Of a stretch of DNA of 20,707 nucleotides, positions 1,350 through 14,277 are shown one piece after another. A model generated the notes under the pieces. It was not told the origin of the DNA, made no database searches, and saw only the letters and a program-made list of their open reading frames with translations. Every line of letters starts with the position of its first letter. The stretch's first letter is position 1. The stretch spans positions 1 through 20,707 of the IMG/VR virus record IMGVR_UViG_3300011116_000737; one strand, given 5' to 3'. A program made the position numbers and the translations under genes. This DNA comes from a virus.

Positions 1350-2579
1350 CTGCTTGATCACTTGAGCAGTAAAACTGCGTAGGCCTAGTGTGAACACACC
1401 TGGTGTTGCATCGCCTGGATACGATTGTGGATCTATGGCCACAATGGTCAGTGTGAGATCATTGGCTGGTGAAGCACCACCAAGGTCAGTGCCTGCAATC
1501 AGTAGTGTATCGCCCACAGCATAATCACTGCCAGCGTTGTTGACAAAACTTATTGTGGTGTTTGCTTGGGTATAGGCACCACTTGCTCCCTCTAACAATT
1601 CAATGTCAATGTCAGCACCTGATCCAATGCCTGTTAATGTGGTTGGAATCACATTTGTATAACTTGTGGTTGAGACTTGTGTGGCACCAGTGCCTGAATA
1701 GGTGTAACTTGCTAGTGATCCATATTGTTGTTCCAACACGCCACCCAACACAGGATTCTTGGTTGAAAACTCTATGTCCAAGATGTACCAGTAGTATCCA
1801 AAGCTGGGTTGATCCAGCACAGTAGTAAAGATATATTCTACATTGCCACTTGAACCTGCAGTGGATTCTGAATAGTGTGTGACTTGTTCACTCACAACAG
1901 GATTACCGTTGGTGTCTAGATCAAACAAATAATCGTTGTCGCCGGCTGTGGTTGTTGGAAAGCCAGCATAACGATCAATTTTGATCCGAATATCCCATTC
2001 ACTTGCTGTGGAACAATCATACGTGAAATCCAAATTTAACTGTGCTGACAAAAACACCTTGTCTGTGGGACCATACACAGTGACACGACCATTGCAGTCA
2101 GTTGACACATCGGTGTTGCTGGCGTTTTTTCCAATGTCTCCGCCTGAAACATAAGCGGGCACAGCGTTTACAGCATCGTATTGAAGTTTGAGTCCTGTGC
2201 TAGATACTTCAATTACGCCTCGAGGATAATTGTCATTGTAATAGCCTGGCGTTGCATTGGCAATAGTGACTGTATCGCCTACCTGAAATGGCACAGGTGT
2301 TTGTGGTGCAGCATATGTAACATCAATTATCGCAATTGAAGGCGGATTTGTAAGTGTAACAATATTGCCAATGCTGATAGGTGCCTGATACAAACTAGGA
2401 GCCGGAGTGGTTGTTATAGGCACAGTGAATGGTGCTCTAAATGTGCCTGTCAAATAAGCAGGTGTGTACGCACTAAAACCATCAAAGTTCTGTCCTAGTC
2501 CAGCAGGACCACTCAACAGATAATTTACTGCTTCATTGATGGCTTGTCCATCATCTATTTCAATGGGAAATTGTGCCAT
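1347..2579 (-). CDS. Putative tail structural protein with FCCH-like and GDTL/LGG modules (410 aa)
   Basis: Function is inferred from position among the tail genes and from modules; I do not recognise the whole protein. The N-terminus (FPIEIDDGQAINEAVNYLL) looks like a virion-assembly segment. Residues about 70-150 resemble an E1 FCCH-like beta module: GDTVTIAN, then GYYNDNY, then YVSGGDI. The middle, about 165-300, is beta-rich and includes WDIRIKIDRYAGFP and YYWYILDIEFST. The C-terminal 94 residues carry GSDYAVGDTLLIAGTDLGG at about 350-368 followed by PANDLTLTI, a module I associate with many aquatic phage structural and fibre proteins. The ATG overlaps the stop of the upstream 661-aa gene (TAATG), with GAGGAT as ribosome site, which suggests coupled translation. 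It could be a tail-tip, fibre-anchor or receptor-contact protein. Confidence 0.75.
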   Translation of the reverse strand: MAQFPIEIDDGQAINEAVNYLLSGPAGLGQNFDGFSAYTPAYLTGTFRAPFTVPITTTPAPSLYQAPISIGNIVTLTNPPSIAIIDVTYAAPQTPVPFQVGDTVTIANATPGYYNDNYPRGVIEVSSTGLKLQYDAVNAVPAYVSGGDIGKNASNTDVSTDCNGRVTVYGPTDKVFLSAQLNLDFTYDCSTASEWDIRIKIDRYAGFPTTTAGDNDYLFDLDTNGNPVVSEQVTHYSESTAGSSGNVEYIFTTVLDQPSFGYYWYILDIEFSTKNPVLGGVLEQQYGSLASYTYSGTGATQVSTTSYTNVIPTTLTGIGSGADIDIELLEGASGAYTQANTTISFVNNAGSDYAVGDTLLIAGTDLGGASPANDLTLTIVAIDPQSYPGDATPGVFTLGLRSFTAQVIKQ

Positions 2580-4564
2580 TAACGATCATCCTCGGTCTGT
2601 GTGACTTGCCAAGTGGTTGCTGAACACATCCAAACATCATTGTTGCTAGTATTGCTTAACACAATTGAATTCACACGGAATGCATTTTGATTGATCTGTG
2701 CCCAGGGATTGGCACCTGCATTGCCATTGGCATCAACAGCCAATTGCACTGGTGTTTTGGCAGTGGGTGCTGAACCTACTGAATTGGCACCTTCAATTGT
2801 GACAGTGATATTGCCTTTGTGTGTGCTCACAGCAGGATCTATAGGGCGTTCATCATCAGATGTAAACGGATCAGCACCAAGATTAACAACTTCGGGCAAG
2901 ATGCGATGCACTAGAAGTTTGCCTGAATAGTCTTTCAACAGCTTGATATTGTCTCTGCGGAAACTTGAAGCAATGTTGCCGTTGGGATTGGTGTTGCTTG
3001 TGATAAAACTGTAGCCTTGATCTTTTTGTACAATTTGACTTTCAGCAATGCCACGTGCATACACCACTGTTCTTGATCCAAACTCTGCTGACCAAACAGG
3101 CAGTGAACTGTCTGTAACATCACGCCAAATGGGGCTTTCACATGAGAATGTGGCGTCGCTGACATCGCGTGGTGCGTTCCAGCAGTCTAGGTCATATCTG
3201 TAGCTTAACATCTTGTTGGGCACGCCGTTGACAGCATCAGAGTCTGGATAGTAAATTTCCACTTGGCTTCGTTGTGAATTTACTTCCATGAACACACGAT
3301 CATAGTATTGTGGATCCAGTTGATCATAGAACCAGTTCTTCACACGCTGGTTGCCCAGACCCTGAAAGTCTTGACCGTCAAACACCCAGATGTCTCTGGC
3401 ATCTACGCCATACACCAGTTTGTCTGTGTTGGCCCAGCAGTTTGAACTTAACAAACCACGACCTTGATTGTATTGTCGCACACCCAGGATAGGTGCTGAT
3501 GTGGTTGAATAGTTAATAGGTGAAAACACCACTGTGTCCCAGTATGAGCACAGGAAGAATTGTCCATTACAAGGAAACGCATCCAGTGCTGGCCCACGAA
3601 GCGGAACCTCTAACTGGTTGGCCACGTTTGTGACAGTGGGTGTCCAGGTTGTGGGTGCTTGGTTTAGGCCAAATGCTTGTGACCATTGCACAGTAACAGG
3701 ATATAGTTCTGTTGCTGAAGTATCTACGGCTGTGGCTGTTAGGTTGCCAGCAACTAGAATTGATCCCACATTTGGAGTGTTGTACAGTCGCATGAACTTG
3801 GCATACACACCTGACCAGTTGGGATTGTAGTTCCAGGTATAAAGAGGAGCAATTTCGCCTGACACAAATGGTTGTGCAACAGTGCAAGCAATTTCCACTG
3901 TGGTGTCAGTGCTGGAGATCACAGCATAGTTGCCATCATAATAACGAGGATTCATGCCTTGTAGTATAATGCTACTACTAGCACCAAATGGTATGGTAGG
4001 AGCGGTGGGATTGTCAAATGTGACCACACGATTTGCAGGATTGGCAGCAACTGTAATACTGGTTATTTCCAATGGTGAAATGTTGCTGTAACTGACCAAC
4101 ACAGCACCAGGTGCGTCTGGCCAAAATATAGGAGGATTGTGTTCGTCGTTTAAAAACAACACATTGCCATTCCATGCTTCTGTAATGTTGGTGTTTTGTG
4201 CGTATTCGCTTGCATCAAATGCTGAATCAGTGGGAGTGATGTTGATCCAATCTTCGCTGACAGGGTTCCAGGCATAGTATCTGCCGGGTTGAGCACCCAC
4301 TGCTGTGGTAGCCACCACAAACCAGAAGTAACCATCAGATCTAAATCCACCTGTGATGAATGTGGGTGCACCAGATCCTGCTGGCAAGGCATCTAATATC
4401 TCTTGATCACCTGACATTGATCTAATGCCACGCACATCAGTTTCTACGTTGACACCGTCGTTGTATTCGTTGGGTCCCAAGGCTGTTGATGGCACATCAG
4501 GTGTGAATGACATCTTGGCGAATGGAATTCGCACTTCATCTAAAGGGTTTCTAATTTGAGCCAC
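2579..4564 (-). CDS. Putative tail nozzle or tail tubular B-like structural protein (661 aa)
   Basis: The start is a GTG at 4564, supported by AGGAA 6 nt upstream; no ATG is better placed. The N-terminus has KMSFTPDVPSTALGPNEYND and ETDVRGIRSMSGD, segments I associate with a tail protein downstream of the adaptor in aquatic podovirus genomes. Residues about 70-160 contain Trp/Tyr-rich strands (GYFWFVVATTAVG, YYAWNPVSEDW, NVLFLNDEHNPPIFWP) typical of beta-propeller-like nozzle proteins. Residues about 166-240 form an FCCH-like module with MNPRYYDGNYAVISSTD and FVSGEI. Later segments such as WANTDKLVYGVDARDIWVFD continue the pattern. The size and the position after adaptor and fibre genes fit a T7 gp12-like or P22 gp10-like role in the short tail tube. 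The assignment is inferred from pattern and synteny, not from a catalytic motif. Confidence 0.8.
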   Translation of the reverse strand: MAQIRNPLDEVRIPFAKMSFTPDVPSTALGPNEYNDGVNVETDVRGIRSMSGDQEILDALPAGSGAPTFITGGFRSDGYFWFVVATTAVGAQPGRYYAWNPVSEDWINITPTDSAFDASEYAQNTNITEAWNGNVLFLNDEHNPPIFWPDAPGAVLVSYSNISPLEITSITVAANPANRVVTFDNPTAPTIPFGASSSIILQGMNPRYYDGNYAVISSTDTTVEIACTVAQPFVSGEIAPLYTWNYNPNWSGVYAKFMRLYNTPNVGSILVAGNLTATAVDTSATELYPVTVQWSQAFGLNQAPTTWTPTVTNVANQLEVPLRGPALDAFPCNGQFFLCSYWDTVVFSPINYSTTSAPILGVRQYNQGRGLLSSNCWANTDKLVYGVDARDIWVFDGQDFQGLGNQRVKNWFYDQLDPQYYDRVFMEVNSQRSQVEIYYPDSDAVNGVPNKMLSYRYDLDCWNAPRDVSDATFSCESPIWRDVTDSSLPVWSAEFGSRTVVYARGIAESQIVQKDQGYSFITSNTNPNGNIASSFRRDNIKLLKDYSGKLLVHRILPEVVNLGADPFTSDDERPIDPAVSTHKGNITVTIEGANSVGSAPTAKTPVQLAVDANGNAGANPWAQINQNAFRVNSIVLSNTSNNDVWMCSATTWQVTQTEDDR

Positions 4565-4576
4565 TTGTTTTTCCTA

Positions 4577-7552
4577 TTAAACTGCTGAGTTATCGTGTAT
4601 GTAACTCCAACGAGCATTTGTTGTGTCCCAGAATGCCAACATACCATTGGGATTGCCACCGCCAGCACTATCACTCACGGCAGCTATCTGTCCAATGGAG
4701 CCTGTGATAGCACCAAGTGCGGCTGCTGTGTAGCTTTGTGCTTTGAAGAAGCTGCCAGTTGTGATGTTGCCTGTGCCTATTATGGTGCCTGTCACACTCA
4801 AGTTGCCTGTAATGGTGCTGAGTGTGGTAGTGGTGTTGAGTGGGCCGCCGCCTGGTGGTGTTAGATCGCTGGTGAACAAGGCAGGAGCACTAAAATAACT
4901 GGTGGCAGTCACGGTGTTGGCACCTATATTATTCACTGCTTGAATATTGCCACTTGCTTGAATATTGCCTGTGATAACTGCTACATTGCCAGTACCATTG
5001 TCATATATGGCATTGGCATACAAGGTTGGCGTTATAACATTTTGAGTTGAAATAACATTGCCAGTTGCGGTGAGACTAGATCCCACCCACACGGTGCCTT
5101 GCACAGCAAGACCGTGTTGTGGGGCAGTATTGCCTATGCCCACATTGCCAGTGGTCAGCAAGTTGATTTGACTAGAACCAGTTGCTATGCGTATGTTGCT
5201 AGCGGTGCCTGTGCCCACACCAATTGATGTAAGGATTGTTAGGTTGCCAAATTGCCGCAGACTTCCAATTGTGCTGTTACCAGCATCAGGTGAAGCAAAC
5301 AAGTTATAACTGCTGTTGAACGCAGTGTTGCTGGTGGTGTGATTGATGCCTGGTAGCACTGTTATGTTAGTGCCTGCTGTGGTTCCTGTAGCAGTGGTCT
5401 GAAATGCAGTGCGTCCTGCTGTGGTGGCTGCTGTAAAATCTCCATAATAGCGTCCGCCATTGGGTAGTATTAGGTTGCCACCATTGATATTGCCTGTGGC
5501 AGTTACTACACCTGCTGTGCGTAGATTGCCCCCATCCACATTGCCTGACACACTTAAACTGGTAAGTGTGCCAACTGAAGTAATATTGGCCTGTGCATTT
5601 TGTGTAACATATTGAGCAAGCGGCACTGTGCCTGTGACATTGGCACCTGTTATGTTTGTGAGTAGTGATCCATCGCCAATGAAGTAATTGGCTGTGACAT
5701 TGCCTGTGGCACTAACCACACCGCCTGTGAGCAAGTTGCCTGATGTAATGTTGCCTGTAGTGGTTATGGTGTTGCTACCAAACCCGTTGCCCAGGAAGTT
5801 GGTCACATTGGCATTGCCATATGCACCCACAATGTTGGCAGCGTTGATATCGGTCAGACCAGAACCATTGCCAAAGAAATAACCTGCTGTGATATTGCCT
5901 GATGTTGATATTGGGTTGTTGGCAAACGCTGCCAGGTTGGCTGCCACATTGGCATTGCCATAAGTTGCTGGTAATCCAGTTAGTTGTGAACCATTACCAA
6001 TAAAGTAGTTGCCTGTGATATTGCCTGCAGCACTGATAGTGCCTGCGACATTTAAATTTAAACCAGTTGACGCAGGAGATGTTTGTTGTGCAGCATTGCC
6101 AATAAAAACATTGCCGCTTAAATTGATATTGCCATTGGCAGCAAAGCCACCTGAAATGGCTGTGCCAGAACTACGCAAATCTAAATTGCCAGCAGCAGCT
6201 TGACCTACATACATTTGTGCACCACCAGTGCCACTCACAGCTAAAACTAAATCATTACTTGGAGCAGCAACTAATTTGGAACTATTGCCTACATTACCAA
6301 TAATTAGATTGTTAGCATCCACGTACACGGCACCAGTGCCATTGACAGCACTACGTTGTCGAATAGTTACATTGGCATCACCAGTGTTGTTGATGTCTAA
6401 ATTGGCTGTGCCTGTGCCAGTTAATGTGGTAGCTACTACATTGCCATACAAATTGCCTGAAGTAATAAAATTGCCTGCTGTGATGTTTCCTGTTGTGCTT
6501 AGATTAGGAATCGAAATATTACCAGCAACACTGAGATTCTGGTTAACATACACACTGTCTGTCACAATCAGGTTGGCCTTGGCATTGGCTGCGTCAGCAC
6601 CTTGTGCGTTGCGACCCACATACACATTACCGCTCAAATTGATATTGCCTGTGCCGCCATATCCGCCTACATTGCTAGAACGAACATCTACGTTGCCTGT
6701 TAATGATGCATTATTGGCCACATACTTGCCCACATACACAGCAGGAGCACCTGCATTGGTTGTGGTTAGTTCAAGAGCCTGGTTTCTAATTGCACGAACA
6801 GTTGCATTGGTGCTTAAAGCAGCATTGTCTTGCCCCACAATCAATTCTGTAGTGTCTATAACCACTGCACCACGACTTGTACCTTGGAATTGGTTGGTAA
6901 TAAGCAAGTTTCCAAATGTTAAATTGCCAACAATAGATGATTTAGTAATTTCAATCCCTGAAGTAGGATATGTGGCGTTGCCTGTGACTTTTAATGTGCT
7001 GGTAGACTTATCAAATGTTAAATTTGCACTAGCATCCAACAAATTGCCTGTGTTGAATTGGATTTGTGTGTTGGCACCTGCGGCAGCAATGTTGCCGGAC
7101 AAATTGCCAATAAAATAAGGTGCTGTGACATTGCCTGCGGCTGTGATGGTTCCGCCAGTGAGCAGGTTGCCGCCCGTGATGTTTCCAGTTACACTCAAAC
7201 TTGTGAGCGTGCCTACACTGGTAATGTTGGCTTGTGCATTGGCTGTAACATATTGTGCTGTGCCTGCTGTGTTGGCAAAGTTTACATTGCCTGAAATATT
7301 GCCTGCGTTGATATTGGTCAGCTGCGAACCATCCCCAATAAAGTAATCAGCTGTGACATTGCCAGTGGCTGATATGTTGCCAATGGTGTTGCCGCCATCT
7401 GTTGATGTGGCCAACAGAGAGACCACATTGGCATTGCCATAGGCCTGTGTGGGATTGATTGTGCCTGATCCTGAATACAACGTGGTAAAGTTACTGCTAG
7501 CCACATTGGCATTGCCCGGTGTTGATGAATATAAACTTGTTGAACTTGTCAT
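4577..7552 (-). CDS. Repetitive tail fibre-like protein (991 aa)
   Basis: The ATG at 7552 (MTSSTSLYSS) is chosen because AAGTAAGGACCACA precedes it and it starts 8 nt after the adaptor stop. A 39-residue upstream extension would lie inside the adaptor gene in another frame. The protein is almost entirely Asn/Gly/Thr/Ser repeats: at least fifteen TGN tripeptides, five versions of YFIGDGSQLTNI, three of YGNANV, and two long units containing AQANITSVGTLTSLSV. Such repeats typically form elongated trimeric beta-fibres. The C-terminus changes character: ITGSIGQIAAVSDSAGGG, then MLAFWDTTNARWSYIHDNSAV, a terminal domain seen in tail fibres and likely at the distal tip. Its role is probably receptor contact or a side fibre. 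I see no chaperone or peptidase domain. Long antisense frames in this region result from the repeats. Confidence 0.88.
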   Translation of the reverse strand: MTSSTSLYSSTPGNANVASSNFTTLYSGSGTINPTQAYGNANVVSLLATSTDGGNTIGNISATGNVTADYFIGDGSQLTNINAGNISGNVNFANTAGTAQYVTANAQANITSVGTLTSLSVTGNITGGNLLTGGTITAAGNVTAPYFIGNLSGNIAAAGANTQIQFNTGNLLDASANLTFDKSTSTLKVTGNATYPTSGIEITKSSIVGNLTFGNLLITNQFQGTSRGAVVIDTTELIVGQDNAALSTNATVRAIRNQALELTTTNAGAPAVYVGKYVANNASLTGNVDVRSSNVGGYGGTGNINLSGNVYVGRNAQGADAANAKANLIVTDSVYVNQNLSVAGNISIPNLSTTGNITAGNFITSGNLYGNVVATTLTGTGTANLDINNTGDANVTIRQRSAVNGTGAVYVDANNLIIGNVGNSSKLVAAPSNDLVLAVSGTGGAQMYVGQAAAGNLDLRSSGTAISGGFAANGNINLSGNVFIGNAAQQTSPASTGLNLNVAGTISAAGNITGNYFIGNGSQLTGLPATYGNANVAANLAAFANNPISTSGNITAGYFFGNGSGLTDINAANIVGAYGNANVTNFLGNGFGSNTITTTGNITSGNLLTGGVVSATGNVTANYFIGDGSLLTNITGANVTGTVPLAQYVTQNAQANITSVGTLTSLSVSGNVDGGNLRTAGVVTATGNINGGNLILPNGGRYYGDFTAATTAGRTAFQTTATGTTAGTNITVLPGINHTTSNTAFNSSYNLFASPDAGNSTIGSLRQFGNLTILTSIGVGTGTASNIRIATGSSQINLLTTGNVGIGNTAPQHGLAVQGTVWVGSSLTATGNVISTQNVITPTLYANAIYDNGTGNVAVITGNIQASGNIQAVNNIGANTVTATSYFSAPALFTSDLTPPGGGPLNTTTTLSTITGNLSVTGTIIGTGNITTGSFFKAQSYTAAALGAITGSIGQIAAVSDSAGGGNPNGMLAFWDTTNARWSYIHDNSAV
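5530..7345 (-). repeat. Intragenic fibre repeats (YFIGDGS, TGN and YGNANV units)
   Basis: Units encoding YFIGDGSQLTNI or variants lie near 7345-7310, 7115-7080, 6008-5970, 5885-5845 and 5695-5655 on the minus strand. Two longer related units encoding AQYVTxNAQANITSVGTLTSLSV lie near 7260-7185 and 5620-5540. The copies have diverged in DNA but keep the protein pattern, consistent with old internal duplications. Confidence 0.8.
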
Positions 7553-7560
7553 TGTGGTCC

Positions 7561-8550
7561 TTACTTGATGTTGTATTGGCGATACTGACGTGGTTGCCAA
7601 ACACTTGTAAAGCGAGTGTGTCCACCTGACCATTTGCCTTTGTTGTTTTGATCTTCTACTGTGTTCCAAGCATCATCAAATTTGGCTTTCCAGGTGGCAG
7701 CGTCTTGTTCATTGTGACGCTTTAGGTAGTATTCCATCAATGTGGCATACACATAGCCTTCTGGCCAAGTCTGTAGCACAGCATTTGACTGCACTGTCTG
7801 ATTGGTTATGCTCACATTGGTCACTGTGCCTGCTGTGGGTGTTGTGCCTCCAGTTGCAGTGAATGTGATACTGGTGTTGCCAGGAATAGTGGCCACAGTG
7901 TACACACCTGCTCCGCCGCCCAGGCTGCCTGAACCTGCTGTGGCTGTGATTTGATCACCCACAGTTAATCCTGTAGTGGTGCTCATGCCTGTGATTGTGG
8001 CTGTCCAAGGACCTGCACCTGATATTGAACCCACTGTGCCTGTTGTGGAGATCACAGTGTCATCAGCAGGAGCAAACAACAAGGGCCAGGCCTTGTAGTA
8101 GTACAAATTGATTTCAGCACCTTCACCAATCCAGGGCAGGAAGTGATACTTGTCAGCCACTTCAGAGAACTTGCCACGGATCACAGCAGGCACATTCACA
8201 GGAGAGAGATACAACTGTGCAATCATGCCTTGTGTGATGATGTCTCTGTCGCCAATACGATCATACACAATCCAAGGACCAGTTTGACTGTTTTGTTGTC
8301 CGCCAGGATTGCCTTGTTTAAAGAACAAAATGGGTTTGTTCATGTCTGCTGGAATAGGAATGTAACCGTTGGCATCAGCAATGCCAATATTTTCCACAGC
8401 ATAAGGATCACTACGCAGGGCAGGCAGTTCAACATTACGCATGTCTAGTTCAGCTAGAAAAATACACTGCTTGATTTCAGCGTCATTGGTTGAACCAGTA
8501 AAGTCTTTGATGTAGTCAACGAGAGCATCACCTGTGGGGATTACGAACAT
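7561..8550 (-). CDS. Head-tail adaptor/connector with an inserted beta domain (329 aa)
   Basis: It joins the portal vertex to the tail in short-tailed phages. The N-terminus has the adaptor layout: VDYIKDFTGSTNDAEIKQCI, LAELDMRNVELPALRSD, then YIPIPADMNKPILFFKQG and a helical segment with EGAEINLYYYKAWP. The C-terminus returns to the family pattern with AVLQTWPEGYVYATLMEYYL and DAATWKAKFDDAWNTVEDQN. Between these, about residues 167-250, is a Gly/Thr-rich beta insertion (GPWTATITGMSTTTGLTVGD ... GVYTVATIPGNTSITFTATG) that resembles E1 FCCH-like or Ig-like modules of aquatic phages. The start is an ATG 2 nt after the stop of the 195-aa gene, with AAAGG as ribosome site. Assignment as an SU10/P22-type adaptor rests on pattern and on its place between capsid and tail genes. 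Confidence 0.85.
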   Translation of the reverse strand: MFVIPTGDALVDYIKDFTGSTNDAEIKQCIFLAELDMRNVELPALRSDPYAVENIGIADANGYIPIPADMNKPILFFKQGNPGGQQNSQTGPWIVYDRIGDRDIITQGMIAQLYLSPVNVPAVIRGKFSEVADKYHFLPWIGEGAEINLYYYKAWPLLFAPADDTVISTTGTVGSISGAGPWTATITGMSTTTGLTVGDQITATAGSGSLGGGAGVYTVATIPGNTSITFTATGGTTPTAGTVTNVSITNQTVQSNAVLQTWPEGYVYATLMEYYLKRHNEQDAATWKAKFDDAWNTVEDQNNKGKWSGGHTRFTSVWQPRQYRQYNIK

Positions 8551-8552
8551 GT

Positions 8553-9140
8553 TTAATGGCCTTTAAAGAATCGTTGTTGTCCAACCTTGGTAGGATAAGG
8601 GACATCAACTGGGATAGGCAGTTTGCCGCCTGGATAGCACACGTACTGATTGTATTCTTTTTCAACTACCTTGTAAAACTGTGCTTTTAAATTACGATCA
8701 TGTTTGATAGCTGCCCAGGGCATGCCACCAAAATACTGATCACTGATACGGATGCTTACAACATTGGGCAAGTCCATCCATTTGTATGTTAGTTTGCCAT
8801 CATCGCCAATGGGTGCAAGTGGGTCATTGTGCCCAGCTTCCACTGCTTTGCGATATGCTTGACATCTGCGTGCCACAGCTTCTGCGTTCTTTTGCTCACG
8901 ACGGATGTAGAACTTGCCATCTTCACGACCAGTAGTGGTTATGATGTTTTGGCTGCCGCTTAAACTGGTGCGTTGCCAGTCGCCTTTCATGGCATTGTAT
9001 AACTTGTCGTTTTTCAGCAGGGTATCAGCTATGCCATTGTGGTTGGTTACCATGCCACCATGGTCTTGACGCCAGTAATCAAAATTCTTTTCTGGGTCAG
9101 CGTCGCTCAAATATTCGGGTTTGTTTAGATCATCACTCAT
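8553..9140 (-). CDS. Hypothetical protein at the head-tail junction (195 aa)
   Basis: I do not recognise this family. The protein is soluble and mixed helical, with no signal peptide or membrane segment. Visible features are an acidic N-terminus (MSDDLNKPEYLSDADPEKN), a basic middle helix (REQKNAEAVARRCQAYRKAV), KWMDLPNVVSIRISDQYFGG and a Pro-rich end (LPIPVDVPYPTKVG). It lies between the major capsid and adaptor genes and is the first gene of the tail block, so a virion-completion or connector role is possible. The ATG at 9140 lies exactly 5 nt after an ACTAAATA box. A GGAGG sequence lies 14 nt upstream of the ATG, on the far side of that box, which is rather distant for a ribosome site. Confidence 0.82.
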   Translation of the reverse strand: MSDDLNKPEYLSDADPEKNFDYWRQDHGGMVTNHNGIADTLLKNDKLYNAMKGDWQRTSLSGSQNIITTTGREDGKFYIRREQKNAEAVARRCQAYRKAVEAGHNDPLAPIGDDGKLTYKWMDLPNVVSIRISDQYFGGMPWAAIKHDRNLKAQFYKVVEKEYNQYVCYPGGKLPIPVDVPYPTKVGQQRFFKGH

Positions 9141-9232: not shown

Positions 9233-10405
9233 TCAGTAAGAGTCGCCAGCTCCAAAGTTCACACGCTGAACGAATGTGCTTGGACGTGCACCGCTTACAG
9301 CAGCACCGCTTGCTGAGATGTTGTGTAGAACACCAACGCCTGCTGGGTTACGCACAATTAGCGTGCCTTCCATCAAGAACTGGTCTAAACTTGCATCTGC
9401 ATTTGAGAAAACTTCGTTGTTGGGACCTAGGTCACGCAATGAACCCCACTGCAACACATCTTCGTTCATGAAGTAGATTTGATCGCTTACGCCAGACTGG
9501 TCCATGATCCAAGAATCATAGATTTCGTATGTGTAATTGAAGTCGCCTTCATAAGTCTGAATTGTGTCACCACGCTCAACGTTACGACGGTTGATGCTGG
9601 TGTTGGAGTTAACGATGTTGTCAGAGATCATGGTACGCAGGCTAGTTGGAACTACCATTGTGCGGATCTTGGCATTGTAACGCTGTTCAGCAGTTGTTAC
9701 CAATTGCTTGTACAACACAGGCTGGAACAATTGGTTAACAAATGTGCCAGTATAGAACTCAGTACCATTAGCACTGATGTTCAAGTTACCAACGTTGGCA
9801 GTGCTGGAGTCAGAACTTGCGTTGTTGGTGTTGGTTGTGATGTTGGCTGTGCCACCGTTTGAAGGGTTAAAGCTGTGTGTGCCTGCAAATGCGTTCAGGG
9901 AACCCATACGACGACCACCTGTCTGACTTGTGCCAGGGTTGGTGATAGCTGTGCCTGATTGGCCTGAGTATTGTGTGCCGATTTGGTCAGCACGAACCAA
10001 TTGTTGCTCAACGTCGAACATGAGTTCGATCAGCTGTTTAACTTCTTGGTAGGCTTGTGGGTCGCCACCAGCCTGCATCACTGCACGAGCTGTTCCAGAG
10101 GCTGCAATAGTTGTCTGGAAAATCTGTGTGTAGTTGCCCAGGTTGTAACGTGAATTTGATTCAGCGTTGGCAGTAGAAACAGCAGCACCTTCTTGCACAG
10201 CTTGAGCTGATGGCAAGCGATAGATGTCGTCAGTCCACAATGGTAGCGTGGAGTTAACTTTACGCTTTTTGCTCATACACATGTTCAACACAGGTGTATC
10301 ATCTTTAACACGATTGGATACGTCTAGATCCAGATCCTTGACAACGATGTCACTGCCGTATGCTGTAGTACCGTTACCAATTTGACTTGTTGTAATTTCT
10401 GCCAT
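9233..10405 (-). CDS. Major capsid protein, DUF5309 / SU10 type (390 aa)
   Basis: It forms the icosahedral shell (HK97 fold in this family). The N-terminal segment is typical of SU10-like major capsid proteins: residues about 33-60 read VKDDTPVLNMCMSKKRKVNS then TLPLWTDD, followed by QEGAAVSTANAESNSRYNLG and YTQIFQTTIAASGTARAV. The middle (about 165-215) is a Ser/Asn/Thr-rich surface-type insert. The end has RTMVVPTSLRTMISDNIV and YEIYDSWIMDQSG, consistent with the family's C-terminal half. Length is normal. The start has a strong AAGGAG site and lies 24 nt after the scaffold stop. It is the second gene of the scaffold-capsid unit and is followed by a terminator, which fits high expression from its own unit. 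Confidence 0.92.
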   Translation of the reverse strand: MAEITTSQIGNGTTAYGSDIVVKDLDLDVSNRVKDDTPVLNMCMSKKRKVNSTLPLWTDDIYRLPSAQAVQEGAAVSTANAESNSRYNLGNYTQIFQTTIAASGTARAVMQAGGDPQAYQEVKQLIELMFDVEQQLVRADQIGTQYSGQSGTAITNPGTSQTGGRRMGSLNAFAGTHSFNPSNGGTANITTNTNNASSDSSTANVGNLNISANGTEFYTGTFVNQLFQPVLYKQLVTTAEQRYNAKIRTMVVPTSLRTMISDNIVNSNTSINRRNVERGDTIQTYEGDFNYTYEIYDSWIMDQSGVSDQIYFMNEDVLQWGSLRDLGPNNEVFSNADASLDQFLMEGTLIVRNPAGVGVLHNISASGAAVSGARPSTFVQRVNFGAGDSY

Positions 10406-12012: not shown

Positions 12013-14277
12013 TTACGAGTATACTTTTGGATCTCCGGCAGCCATGCTCATAAAGTCCAGTTGGCTTTCAGCGTCAGTGCCAGCAACTTCCATTTCAATT
12101 TGGCGTGCTTTGACATCGTTCAAATTGGCCACACTCAGCTTCTGTTTGTCTTCTGCTGATGGCTCCCGAGTTTTGGCAGCTTCTTGTGCTTGAGCAATCA
12201 TTTGCTTGACTTCATCATCGCTAGGCAAGTAGGTGTCGCAGTCTTTCACACCCAATTGATATAGTGTGTCAGCAAAAGGCTTCTTGACCTTTTTAAATAT
12301 GTCTGGTGTTAGTGTGCCTGAACTAACCATGCCTTGCACTGTGTTGTATAATTCTGTTTGCACCTTCTGAATGATCTGTGTGCGGGCTAGAGCGTTCTCT
12401 TCTGACATCATGCCCAGGGCCAATTCAATGTGAACCTGCTTGCGATCACAGAAGTTCATGTCATCCCAGGCTTGATAATCCAGGAAAATGGGTTGCTTGT
12501 CAGGATGTGAGCTGGCAGCCAATTTCTTCACACCATAATCATCACCATACTGGATCAGAGTTCGCCATGTAAGCCATAGTGCTTCTCTCAAGCCTTCGGC
12601 ACAGTTGCGTACTGTGTTGTCTTGAATGATTTGATTTGGTGTCAAGGCCATTTGTAGCTTCACGCCTGAATTGCCTGGGCTCATGACTTCAGGATTGAAC
12701 ACATCTTGTGGAGTGGTCATACCAATCATGGCCATTGTATCCTGCTGAATACGGTTCATGGCCACTTCTAAAAACTGCAAGTTGCCTGATGGTGGGGGAA
12801 CAGCATACACATCTGTGGCAGGATTGAATTTAGAGTCCAGGATAAAGATGGCAGCTTCGCCATCTTGCAGCATTTCAAAGTCCAGTTTGTCGGGTTTCAC
12901 ACCCAATCTTGGCGTTGCTGTCAAGAGGCCTAACTGTATTTCAGCTCTTGCGGCTGATGTTGCGTATTCCTGCATGGGAATAACTGACTCTGCAATGCTC
13001 ATTCCATAAAAGTTGCCGGGCAAGGGCTTGGGACACATGTTGGCCACAGGGATAAACTCTACTTCACGTGCGGAAATGATGTAACTGCCTGAATAGATCA
13101 GTTCCACAAGCTCTAGTTCTCCGTCTCCGTCAATGTCATACTTGTTCCATACTGTGACAATTGATACTTGTCTTGAGTCAGGGTCAGCTGATGCTGCTGA
13201 ACTCACTGGGATACCCATAACAGGCACTGAGTCTCTTGCGTGAATAGCCAAGTTGTTCAGCACTGATCCTGCTTGATACGCACCATTCATGTTGTATTCA
13301 GCATGCACTTCAAACTCAGCAAGGTCAATACCAGGATATAGTTCTGTTGCTTCTTGTATGGTCATGGGATCATAGTAACCACAGAAAGGTTGCTCACGCA
13401 TTTCAGGCACAGTGGGATCACAAATCCAGTAGTGCTGTGCAATAGGGTGAAACTTGATGTTGATGTTGTAGCCTGTTAGTTTGTATTTGGCCGAATAGAT
13501 GGTGTTTCTTGCAATTGCGTCATCCAAGACTGATTGTTCAGCGTCTAACATGGCACCTGGCTGGTCCATGGGCTCGTCTTGTTCTTCAGGATCCTGGGGC
13601 AAATTGTTTACAAACTGGTCCAGTTGTTCTTCACTTATGGCAGCACGTTCAGAGCCTAGGTTCTGTTGTATTTCTGCCAGTGCTGTCTGCAGGTCCACAC
13701 TGACTCTACGACGGCTTTGTCGCATGGCAACAAGGCCTGAATCAGCTGCTTGTTGTTCAAATGCTGTGAGCTGGTCTGCTGTGCCTTCTGTTGTGACATA
13801 ACGCACAATGGGTTCACGCACAGGCTTGATCATCATCATGCCATTTTTGTGCATGGCTGAATCCATCACCCAGCGTTCCATGATAAAGTGCGGGTCATTC
13901 ATTTGGTTAACAACTTTTGACACCATCTCAGTGGCTTGTCGTGCTGCGTATTCATCTTCTTCTGAATCAGGCACAAACTCAAAGTTGATTTCACCGTTGG
14001 GCACCAGTCCTTTGGTAATCACAGCAGTGGCATAATCCACAGCAGGCTTTACTGATGGGTGAATATAATCTATGCCGTTTACAGGAGCTGTAGAGTCTGT
14101 CACAGCCAACACCAAGTAATGGTAATCACTGGCACGGTTCACAGCATTCTTGGTGCCTAGGTAGCGTAGATATGAAGCCATCTTCACATCCATTTGATTC
14201 TTCATACGAACAAGATTAGCGTTGAGTCTGCGATTTTGATTGATCTTGTCAATGGGTATATTTTTAATGTCTAGCAT
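12013..14277 (-). CDS. Portal protein, P22/SU10 type (754 aa)
   Basis: It forms the dodecameric vertex ring through which DNA is packaged and ejected, and it binds terminase and adaptor. Length is close to the large P22-type portals. The family layout is visible: an N-terminal helical region (RMKNQMDVKMASYLRYLG), HPSVKPAVDYATAVITKGL near 73-91, MERWVMDSAMHKNGMMMIKP near 133-152, then an acidic insert (about 215-245, NLPQDPEEQDEPMDQPG). The portal-type strand pair VSIVTVWNKYDIDGDGELEL is near 371-390, followed by FYGMSIAESVIPMQEY near 423-438, and DTMAMIGMTTPQDVF in the core. The C-terminus is helical and charged (DDEVKQMIAQAQEAAK), like the barrel region. The start is preceded by GAGGA and lies 23 nt after an ACTAAATA box. 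Confidence 0.92.
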   Translation of the reverse strand: MLDIKNIPIDKINQNRRLNANLVRMKNQMDVKMASYLRYLGTKNAVNRASDYHYLVLAVTDSTAPVNGIDYIHPSVKPAVDYATAVITKGLVPNGEINFEFVPDSEEDEYAARQATEMVSKVVNQMNDPHFIMERWVMDSAMHKNGMMMIKPVREPIVRYVTTEGTADQLTAFEQQAADSGLVAMRQSRRRVSVDLQTALAEIQQNLGSERAAISEEQLDQFVNNLPQDPEEQDEPMDQPGAMLDAEQSVLDDAIARNTIYSAKYKLTGYNINIKFHPIAQHYWICDPTVPEMREQPFCGYYDPMTIQEATELYPGIDLAEFEVHAEYNMNGAYQAGSVLNNLAIHARDSVPVMGIPVSSAASADPDSRQVSIVTVWNKYDIDGDGELELVELIYSGSYIISAREVEFIPVANMCPKPLPGNFYGMSIAESVIPMQEYATSAARAEIQLGLLTATPRLGVKPDKLDFEMLQDGEAAIFILDSKFNPATDVYAVPPPSGNLQFLEVAMNRIQQDTMAMIGMTTPQDVFNPEVMSPGNSGVKLQMALTPNQIIQDNTVRNCAEGLREALWLTWRTLIQYGDDYGVKKLAASSHPDKQPIFLDYQAWDDMNFCDRKQVHIELALGMMSEENALARTQIIQKVQTELYNTVQGMVSSGTLTPDIFKKVKKPFADTLYQLGVKDCDTYLPSDDEVKQMIAQAQEAAKTREPSAEDKQKLSVANLNDVKARQIEMEVAGTDAESQLDFMSMAAGDPKVYS

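Follow-up and report, generated by a model that had tools for sequence, protein, structure and literature searches.

Head–tail adaptors are usually regarded as conserved connecting parts that join portal and tail. The stretch of viral DNA analyzed here (the window; 20,707 nt, positions 1 to 20,707 of IMG/VR record IMGVR_UViG_3300011116_000737) encodes an adaptor in which an earlier note, made from the sequence alone, had described a Gly/Thr-rich beta domain inserted between two segments of continuous adaptor sequence, with the suggestion that it could bind the fibre, the host surface or glycans. This raises the questions of whether the domain is a true insertion, where else it occurs and what it might contribute to the virion.

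The product of 7561–8550 is a head–tail adaptor of the SU10 type, as supported by its match to the Pfam family SU10_adaptor (PF24175), its predicted fold and the surrounding gene order (Table 1). PF24175 matched the window adaptor with an E value of 1.3e-6 and 29.4 bits (cut-off 27), the best stretch comprising residues 220–303 only; an insert-less relative, L145, aligned to the same family over 15–214 (E 6e-10). The corresponding PHROG was phrog_2941. Profile–profile comparison with SU10 gp11 using hhalign was not significant and does not enter the assignment. Portal (PF23899), major capsid protein (PF17236), adaptor and fibre genes are arranged as in an SU10-like morphogenesis block. Between the capsid and adaptor genes, a 195-aa gene (8553–9140) could not be convincingly placed in any Pfam or PHROGs family; in SU10, the equivalent place is taken by a gene for an Ig-like protein. 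At the edge of the window, a partial ORF (1–1326, 442 aa) contains near-duplicate stretches (PAYDYTVDETGNY...TYVPP) and a 24-nt repeat at 816–876.

Table 1 Features of the adaptor locus and its surroundings in the window.
Feature	Positions	Strand	Basis or remark
Head–tail adaptor, SU10 type, 329 aa	7561..8550	(-)	PF24175, phrog_2941 and fold matches
N-terminal part of the adaptor core (two helices plus the fibre-dock beta sheet)	8062..8550	(-)	Alignment and model
Site A, between the first two helices; empty in the window	8488..8502	(-)	~75-aa insert in P0002 and L159–L238
Site B loop; empty in the window	8287..8316	(-)	Holds another Gly/Thr-rich module, of ~74 aa, in ~23 relatives
Inserted six-stranded beta domain, site C module, residues ~164–250	7801..8061	(-)	Insert-less relatives, model, free copies
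Adaptor core, C-terminal helices and tail	7561..7800	(-)	Alignment, model, PF24175 match passing through
Fibre-like protein, downstream of the adaptor	4577..7552	(-)	N-terminal (S/N)N.T.LY motif, repeated
SU10-type major capsid protein (context)	9233..10405	(-)	PF17236, E 1.1e-33
SU10-type portal protein (context)	12013..14277	(-)	PF23899, E 7.1e-46

The proposed insert proved to lie where it had been placed, with 7801–8052 encoding adaptor residues 167–250 between the flanks KAWPLLFAPADD and AVLQTWPEGYVYATL. Gly, Thr and Ser account for 58% of the insert versus 16% of the adaptor core, and its GC content is 54% versus 45%. With 112 distinct 4-mers (window mean 139 ± 10.5), the insert DNA ranks in the lowest 1.7% of windows for complexity. 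The suggestion that this DNA is repetitive therefore holds for its composition and not for its arrangement: the best TRF score was 31 and no real tandem repeat was present in the insert, which led us to reject tandem-repeat expansion as its origin. A 17-nt direct repeat (94%) occurs near both module ends at 7822–7838 and 8032–8048, with a spacing of 210; it could be a recombination handle or merely reflect the codons of TGTV/AGTV. A frameshift or misjoin artefact was rejected on the basis of the single open frame and more than 100 homologues with the same architecture. Profile searches at E up to 10 detected no further module copies in this virus record.

To place the insert in an evolutionary context, we compared 207 complete relatives from IMG/VR, counted as loci, some of which are overlapping cuts of one contig. 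Their adaptors were mostly about 320–333 aa long (177 loci), with 23 of about 400–406 aa and seven shorter. In seven of the 207 (L102, L104, L143, L158, L145, L146 and L149), falling in four lineages, the same flanks are joined by a short linker. One of them, L104, shares 80% identity with the window adaptor and has the junction ...LLFSPVTGGDPGETVQTNAVLQTWAEGY... in place of the insert. The site C insert is also absent from P0002 (MW202484, the genome of a Manatee Spring podovirus) and its 80 IMG/VR relatives, a sister clade in which a short linker likewise joins the flanks. Residues ~165–249 are a true insertion, being missing from relatives whose overall identity reaches 80%. The possibility that all adaptors of the family carry the segment as part of their core fold was rejected, since homologues without it keep both flanks, which are continuous adaptor sequence as the earlier note had read them. 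SU10 gp11, aligned by eye, has only a short strand-to-helix loop at the junction. A BFVD search with the adaptor returned an 88%-identical 329-aa protein as well as relatives of 475 and 242 aa, lengths consistent with the presence and absence of inserts. On a tree of core columns, the distribution of the insert requires several state changes (L143 was labelled 'A' in this tree only on account of an upstream ATG; this locus carries no insert).

Structure prediction supported a separate domain. An AlphaFold2 model was computed with 80 relatives from a reference without the first codon, so that model numbering equals the protein residue minus 1. Mean pLDDT was 81.9 for the adaptor and 93–96 for the insert, with uncertainty at a loop around ~80–120 and at the C-terminal tail. 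The core combines a helix bundle with a beta dock domain. The whole model resembles SU10 gp11 (7z4b, 7z47) as well as the Pa223 adapter (9nwi), with Foldseek E values of 7e-8 to 3e-7 and Z scores of 15–17, including VIA Z values of 17.2 to 9nwi_A and 15.9 to 7z47_B over ~196–201 residues. The insert forms a compact, separate barrel of six strands (model residues 164–248, protein 165–249). Taken by itself, it aligned at Z ~7 with small barrels: the N-terminal domains of F1-ATPase, and also riboflavin synthase, lumazine protein, RNA helicases and a tail-tube protein of phage Mystique. Foldseek also listed E1 structures and the phi92 and K1F endosialidases (E 0.008–0.1).

The earlier classification of the domain as FCCH-like or Ig-like fared unevenly. 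Likeness to FCCH was suggested at the fold level only, with Foldseek E values of ~1e-2 to E1 structures, and found no counterpart in Pfam: the E1_FCCH profile matched neither the insert (E up to 10) nor any of 46 members (E up to 1), in searches where weak hits are discarded by the filters of HMMER. Against the insert, the barrels of riboflavin synthase and F1-ATPase reach scores level with those of E1 FCCH. As Z ~7 is usual for common small barrels, these data support a fold class, not kinship. The Ig-like label found no support in the profile searches or among the fold matches listed: Ig profiles did not match the window insert, a single member of 46 matched Big_6 (E 0.27), and the listed fold matches included no Ig domain. 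Searches for solved structures related to the insert by sequence yielded none. Two tail proteins of the window, at 2579–4564 (residues ~168–245) and 1347–2579 (residues ~65–150), contain FCCH-looking segments of their own (VTLTNP..GDTVTIANATPGYYNDNY), which the insert profile did not match.

Site C is one of three separate loops of this adaptor fold that take different modules. Members of the P0002 clade carry ~75 residues at site A in place of the site C insert. Adaptors of ~402 aa, such as L054, combine the site C insert with a ~74-aa module at site B, in the loop after KPILFFKQG, and a second model, for L054, showed each of the two inserts as a beta module attached to this core. The site B module is present in other proteins too, among them a second SU10_adaptor subfamily comprising L381 (1273–2106; PF24175 E 1.8e-20) and several of L374–L396. 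There, the module (TATGTSGQFTIVV...) sits in the corresponding loop of a remote adaptor.

Using patterns derived from the insert alignment, we also searched for free copies of the site C module. It occurs at 57–71% identity in unrelated, non-adaptor virion proteins on 39 distinct stretches (a count that includes L038, a truncated adaptor). Examples are the tail fibre of L317 (989 aa), which contains Mtd_N and Peptidase_S74 (S74-chaperone) domains; families annotated as 'virion structural protein', represented by L268 and by L266, where the module is present twice; a protein of 403 aa in L278; and proteins of ~280 aa. No model in Pfam, NCBIfam or PHROGs covers the module. The window insert is equally distant from inserts of remote adaptors (66% identity to L054, 64% to L065) and from free copies. 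Module trees did not reject a single origin of the adaptor copies (AU p 0.667), and we make no claim of several independent captures by adaptors, given that a single origin fits. In bacterial and archaeal genomes, one exact pattern and the L361-module patterns, which constitute a weak test, retrieved no module copy.

Within adaptors, the insert changes faster than its surroundings. Over 1378 pairs, mean identity was 75% for the core and 55% for the insert, with a core–insert correlation of only 0.50. In the pair L040 and L042, cores are 97–99% identical and inserts 51%, with breakpoints at the domain ends; DNA identity drops from ~0.9 to ~0.5 at residue ~157 and recovers at ~250. The window adaptor and L010 share 96% of the core and 73% of the insert. 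At four-fold sites, this second pair is identical at 66 of 90 positions in the flanks and 18 of 45 in the insert (Fisher p 3e-4), and the corresponding test for L040 and L042 gave p 0.01, both values uncorrected with 51 pairs viewed. Judged from these alignments, both pairs point to replacement of the insert by recombination. In pooled close pairs, four-fold identity was similar for flank (0.58) and insert (0.54), so that the age of most inserts seems to match that of their flanks, with only the amino acid sequence changing faster. This fast change could reflect relaxed constraint. A diversity-generating retroelement was rejected as its source because substitutions between the window and L010 are of all types rather than adenine-specific and affect the whole domain.

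We then asked how insert and fibre are related. The adaptor ring of SU10 carries the long fibres via the dock domain and the helix-bundle surface (PMC9509320). Fibres encoded in L001–L238 and at 4577–7552 of the window begin, right after the start codon, with one or two copies of a (S/N)N.T.LY / GLYG motif, which is likely an adaptor-docking peptide present once or twice per chain. Downstream of the insert-less adaptors of L102, L104, L143, L158 and L145, fibres have the same N.T.LY N-terminal motif, which indicates that the insert is dispensable for fibre docking and, at the level of sequence comparison, weakens a strict docking role. Insert identity nevertheless correlates, beyond the core, with that of fibre residues 1–60 and 61–150 (partial r 0.23, p 0.001), a signal found neither for the upstream gene nor for the C-terminal part of the adaptor, although the latter separates the insert from the fibre gene. 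Stricter controls lowered r to 0.125–0.17 (p 0.012 and 0.003). Among 26 independent pairs, the correlation was retained for fibre residues 1–60 (partial rho 0.41, p 0.025) and no signal was seen for 61–150. Partial Mantel tests are liberal, and the covariation is weak; we take these values as suggestive of insert divergence tracking the first 60 residues of the fibre. Two side observations concern this part of the locus. The window fibre has four weak matches to the PF06598 Chlorovirus glycoprotein repeat (25.4 bits, cut-off 27). In four members of the P0002 clade (L171, L177, L199 and L209), an ORF of ~190–200 aa between the adaptor and fibre genes looks, by eye only, like a free-standing GIY-YIG-type endonuclease.

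On balance, we lean towards the insert being an optional, promiscuous and exposed barrel, a decoration cassette near the fibre dock that provides an accessory contact surface. A barrel module would have been spliced in at the junction of the fibre-dock sheet and the C-terminal helices. Twelve copies, a number taken from SU10, would then ring the neck and adjoin the fibre attachment sites, facing outward and being unnecessary for neck assembly or fibre docking. They might serve weak adhesion to cell-surface polymers or contact the fibre stem, and would have diversified through fast substitution with occasional wholesale replacement. A more far-reaching version, in which the adaptor is a diversity hot spot whose exchangeable barrel co-evolves with the docking region of the fibre and aids host attachment, with relatives using two more sites, is one we offer tentatively and regard as rather unlikely.

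Three other explanations were weighed against the decoration cassette. Gly/Thr-rich barrels may be mere spacers. As a spacer or structural cement, the insert could occupy the space that separates neck from capsid, or it could lend rigidity to the base of the fibre, and would then have no ligand beyond the virion itself. Its location next to the dock sheet and the helix bundle and the modest covariation with the start of the fibre would suit this function, as would the phage Mystique tail-tube protein (9n71), part of which aligns with the insert barrel (Z 6.8). We nonetheless consider it unlikely, as four lineages lack the insert entirely while keeping the same fibre motif and the domain changes faster than expected of a conserved interface. 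It is quite unlikely that the insert is a neutral passenger, in which case a Gly/Thr-rich module prone to recombination would move from one virion gene to another and be accommodated by surface loops. The variety of proteins containing it, its repeated absence on the tree and the module at site B of the second adaptor subfamily would all be in line with such spread, but key Gly and Trp positions are conserved across 46 divergent inserts and most of the clade keeps the domain. Finally, that the insert itself holds the long fibre and co-evolves with the fibre N-terminus for this reason is very improbable: the covariation with fibre residues 1–60, its specificity and its persistence in independent pairs are as this would predict, yet fibres behind insert-less adaptors keep their motif, and SU10 docks its fibres without any such inserted domain (PMC9509320).

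The locus was also compared with known systems. SU10 gp11 (7z47, 7z4b, 7z4f) and the Pa223 adapter (9nwi) resemble the window adaptor in core fold, and the likeness extends to the order of portal, capsid, adaptor and fibre genes and to SU10-type portal and capsid proteins; unlike the window adaptor, both lack the ~85-aa barrel at the junction. The open-licence papers searched described no adaptor with such an insertion. E1 FCCH, riboflavin synthase, the F1-ATPase N-terminal barrel and the phi92 and K1F endosialidases likewise feature a small beta barrel, but no sequence relation to the insert was found and the match is at the level of common barrels. The promiscuous Ig-like domains of virion proteins (Fraser 2006, cited in PMC10684548) and the shuffling of domains reported among neck passage proteins (PMC10684548) provide a parallel in that one module recurs across unrelated virion proteins and is swapped between near-identical relatives. 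The present module differs in not being Ig by the matches listed, in sitting in an adaptor and in having no family entry; it represents a family in fibres and virion proteins of uncultivated phages that is unnamed in the searched libraries. 'Evolved' Dit and major tail proteins (MTPs) contain inserted carbohydrate-binding modules (CBMs), and 936 lactococcal phages have neck-passage CBMs (PMC6669499). These, too, are exchangeable surface domains on a ring or tube protein in only some relatives, whereas the host protein here is the portal-proximal adaptor and the likeness is one of analogy. By this analogy, the insert would most likely work like the Dit, MTP and 936 modules. Natural pairs with and without the insert allow the role of such domains to be tested directly, and a near-constant adaptor core with one replaced or fast-changing domain would make the neck a further mount for exchangeable surface domains.
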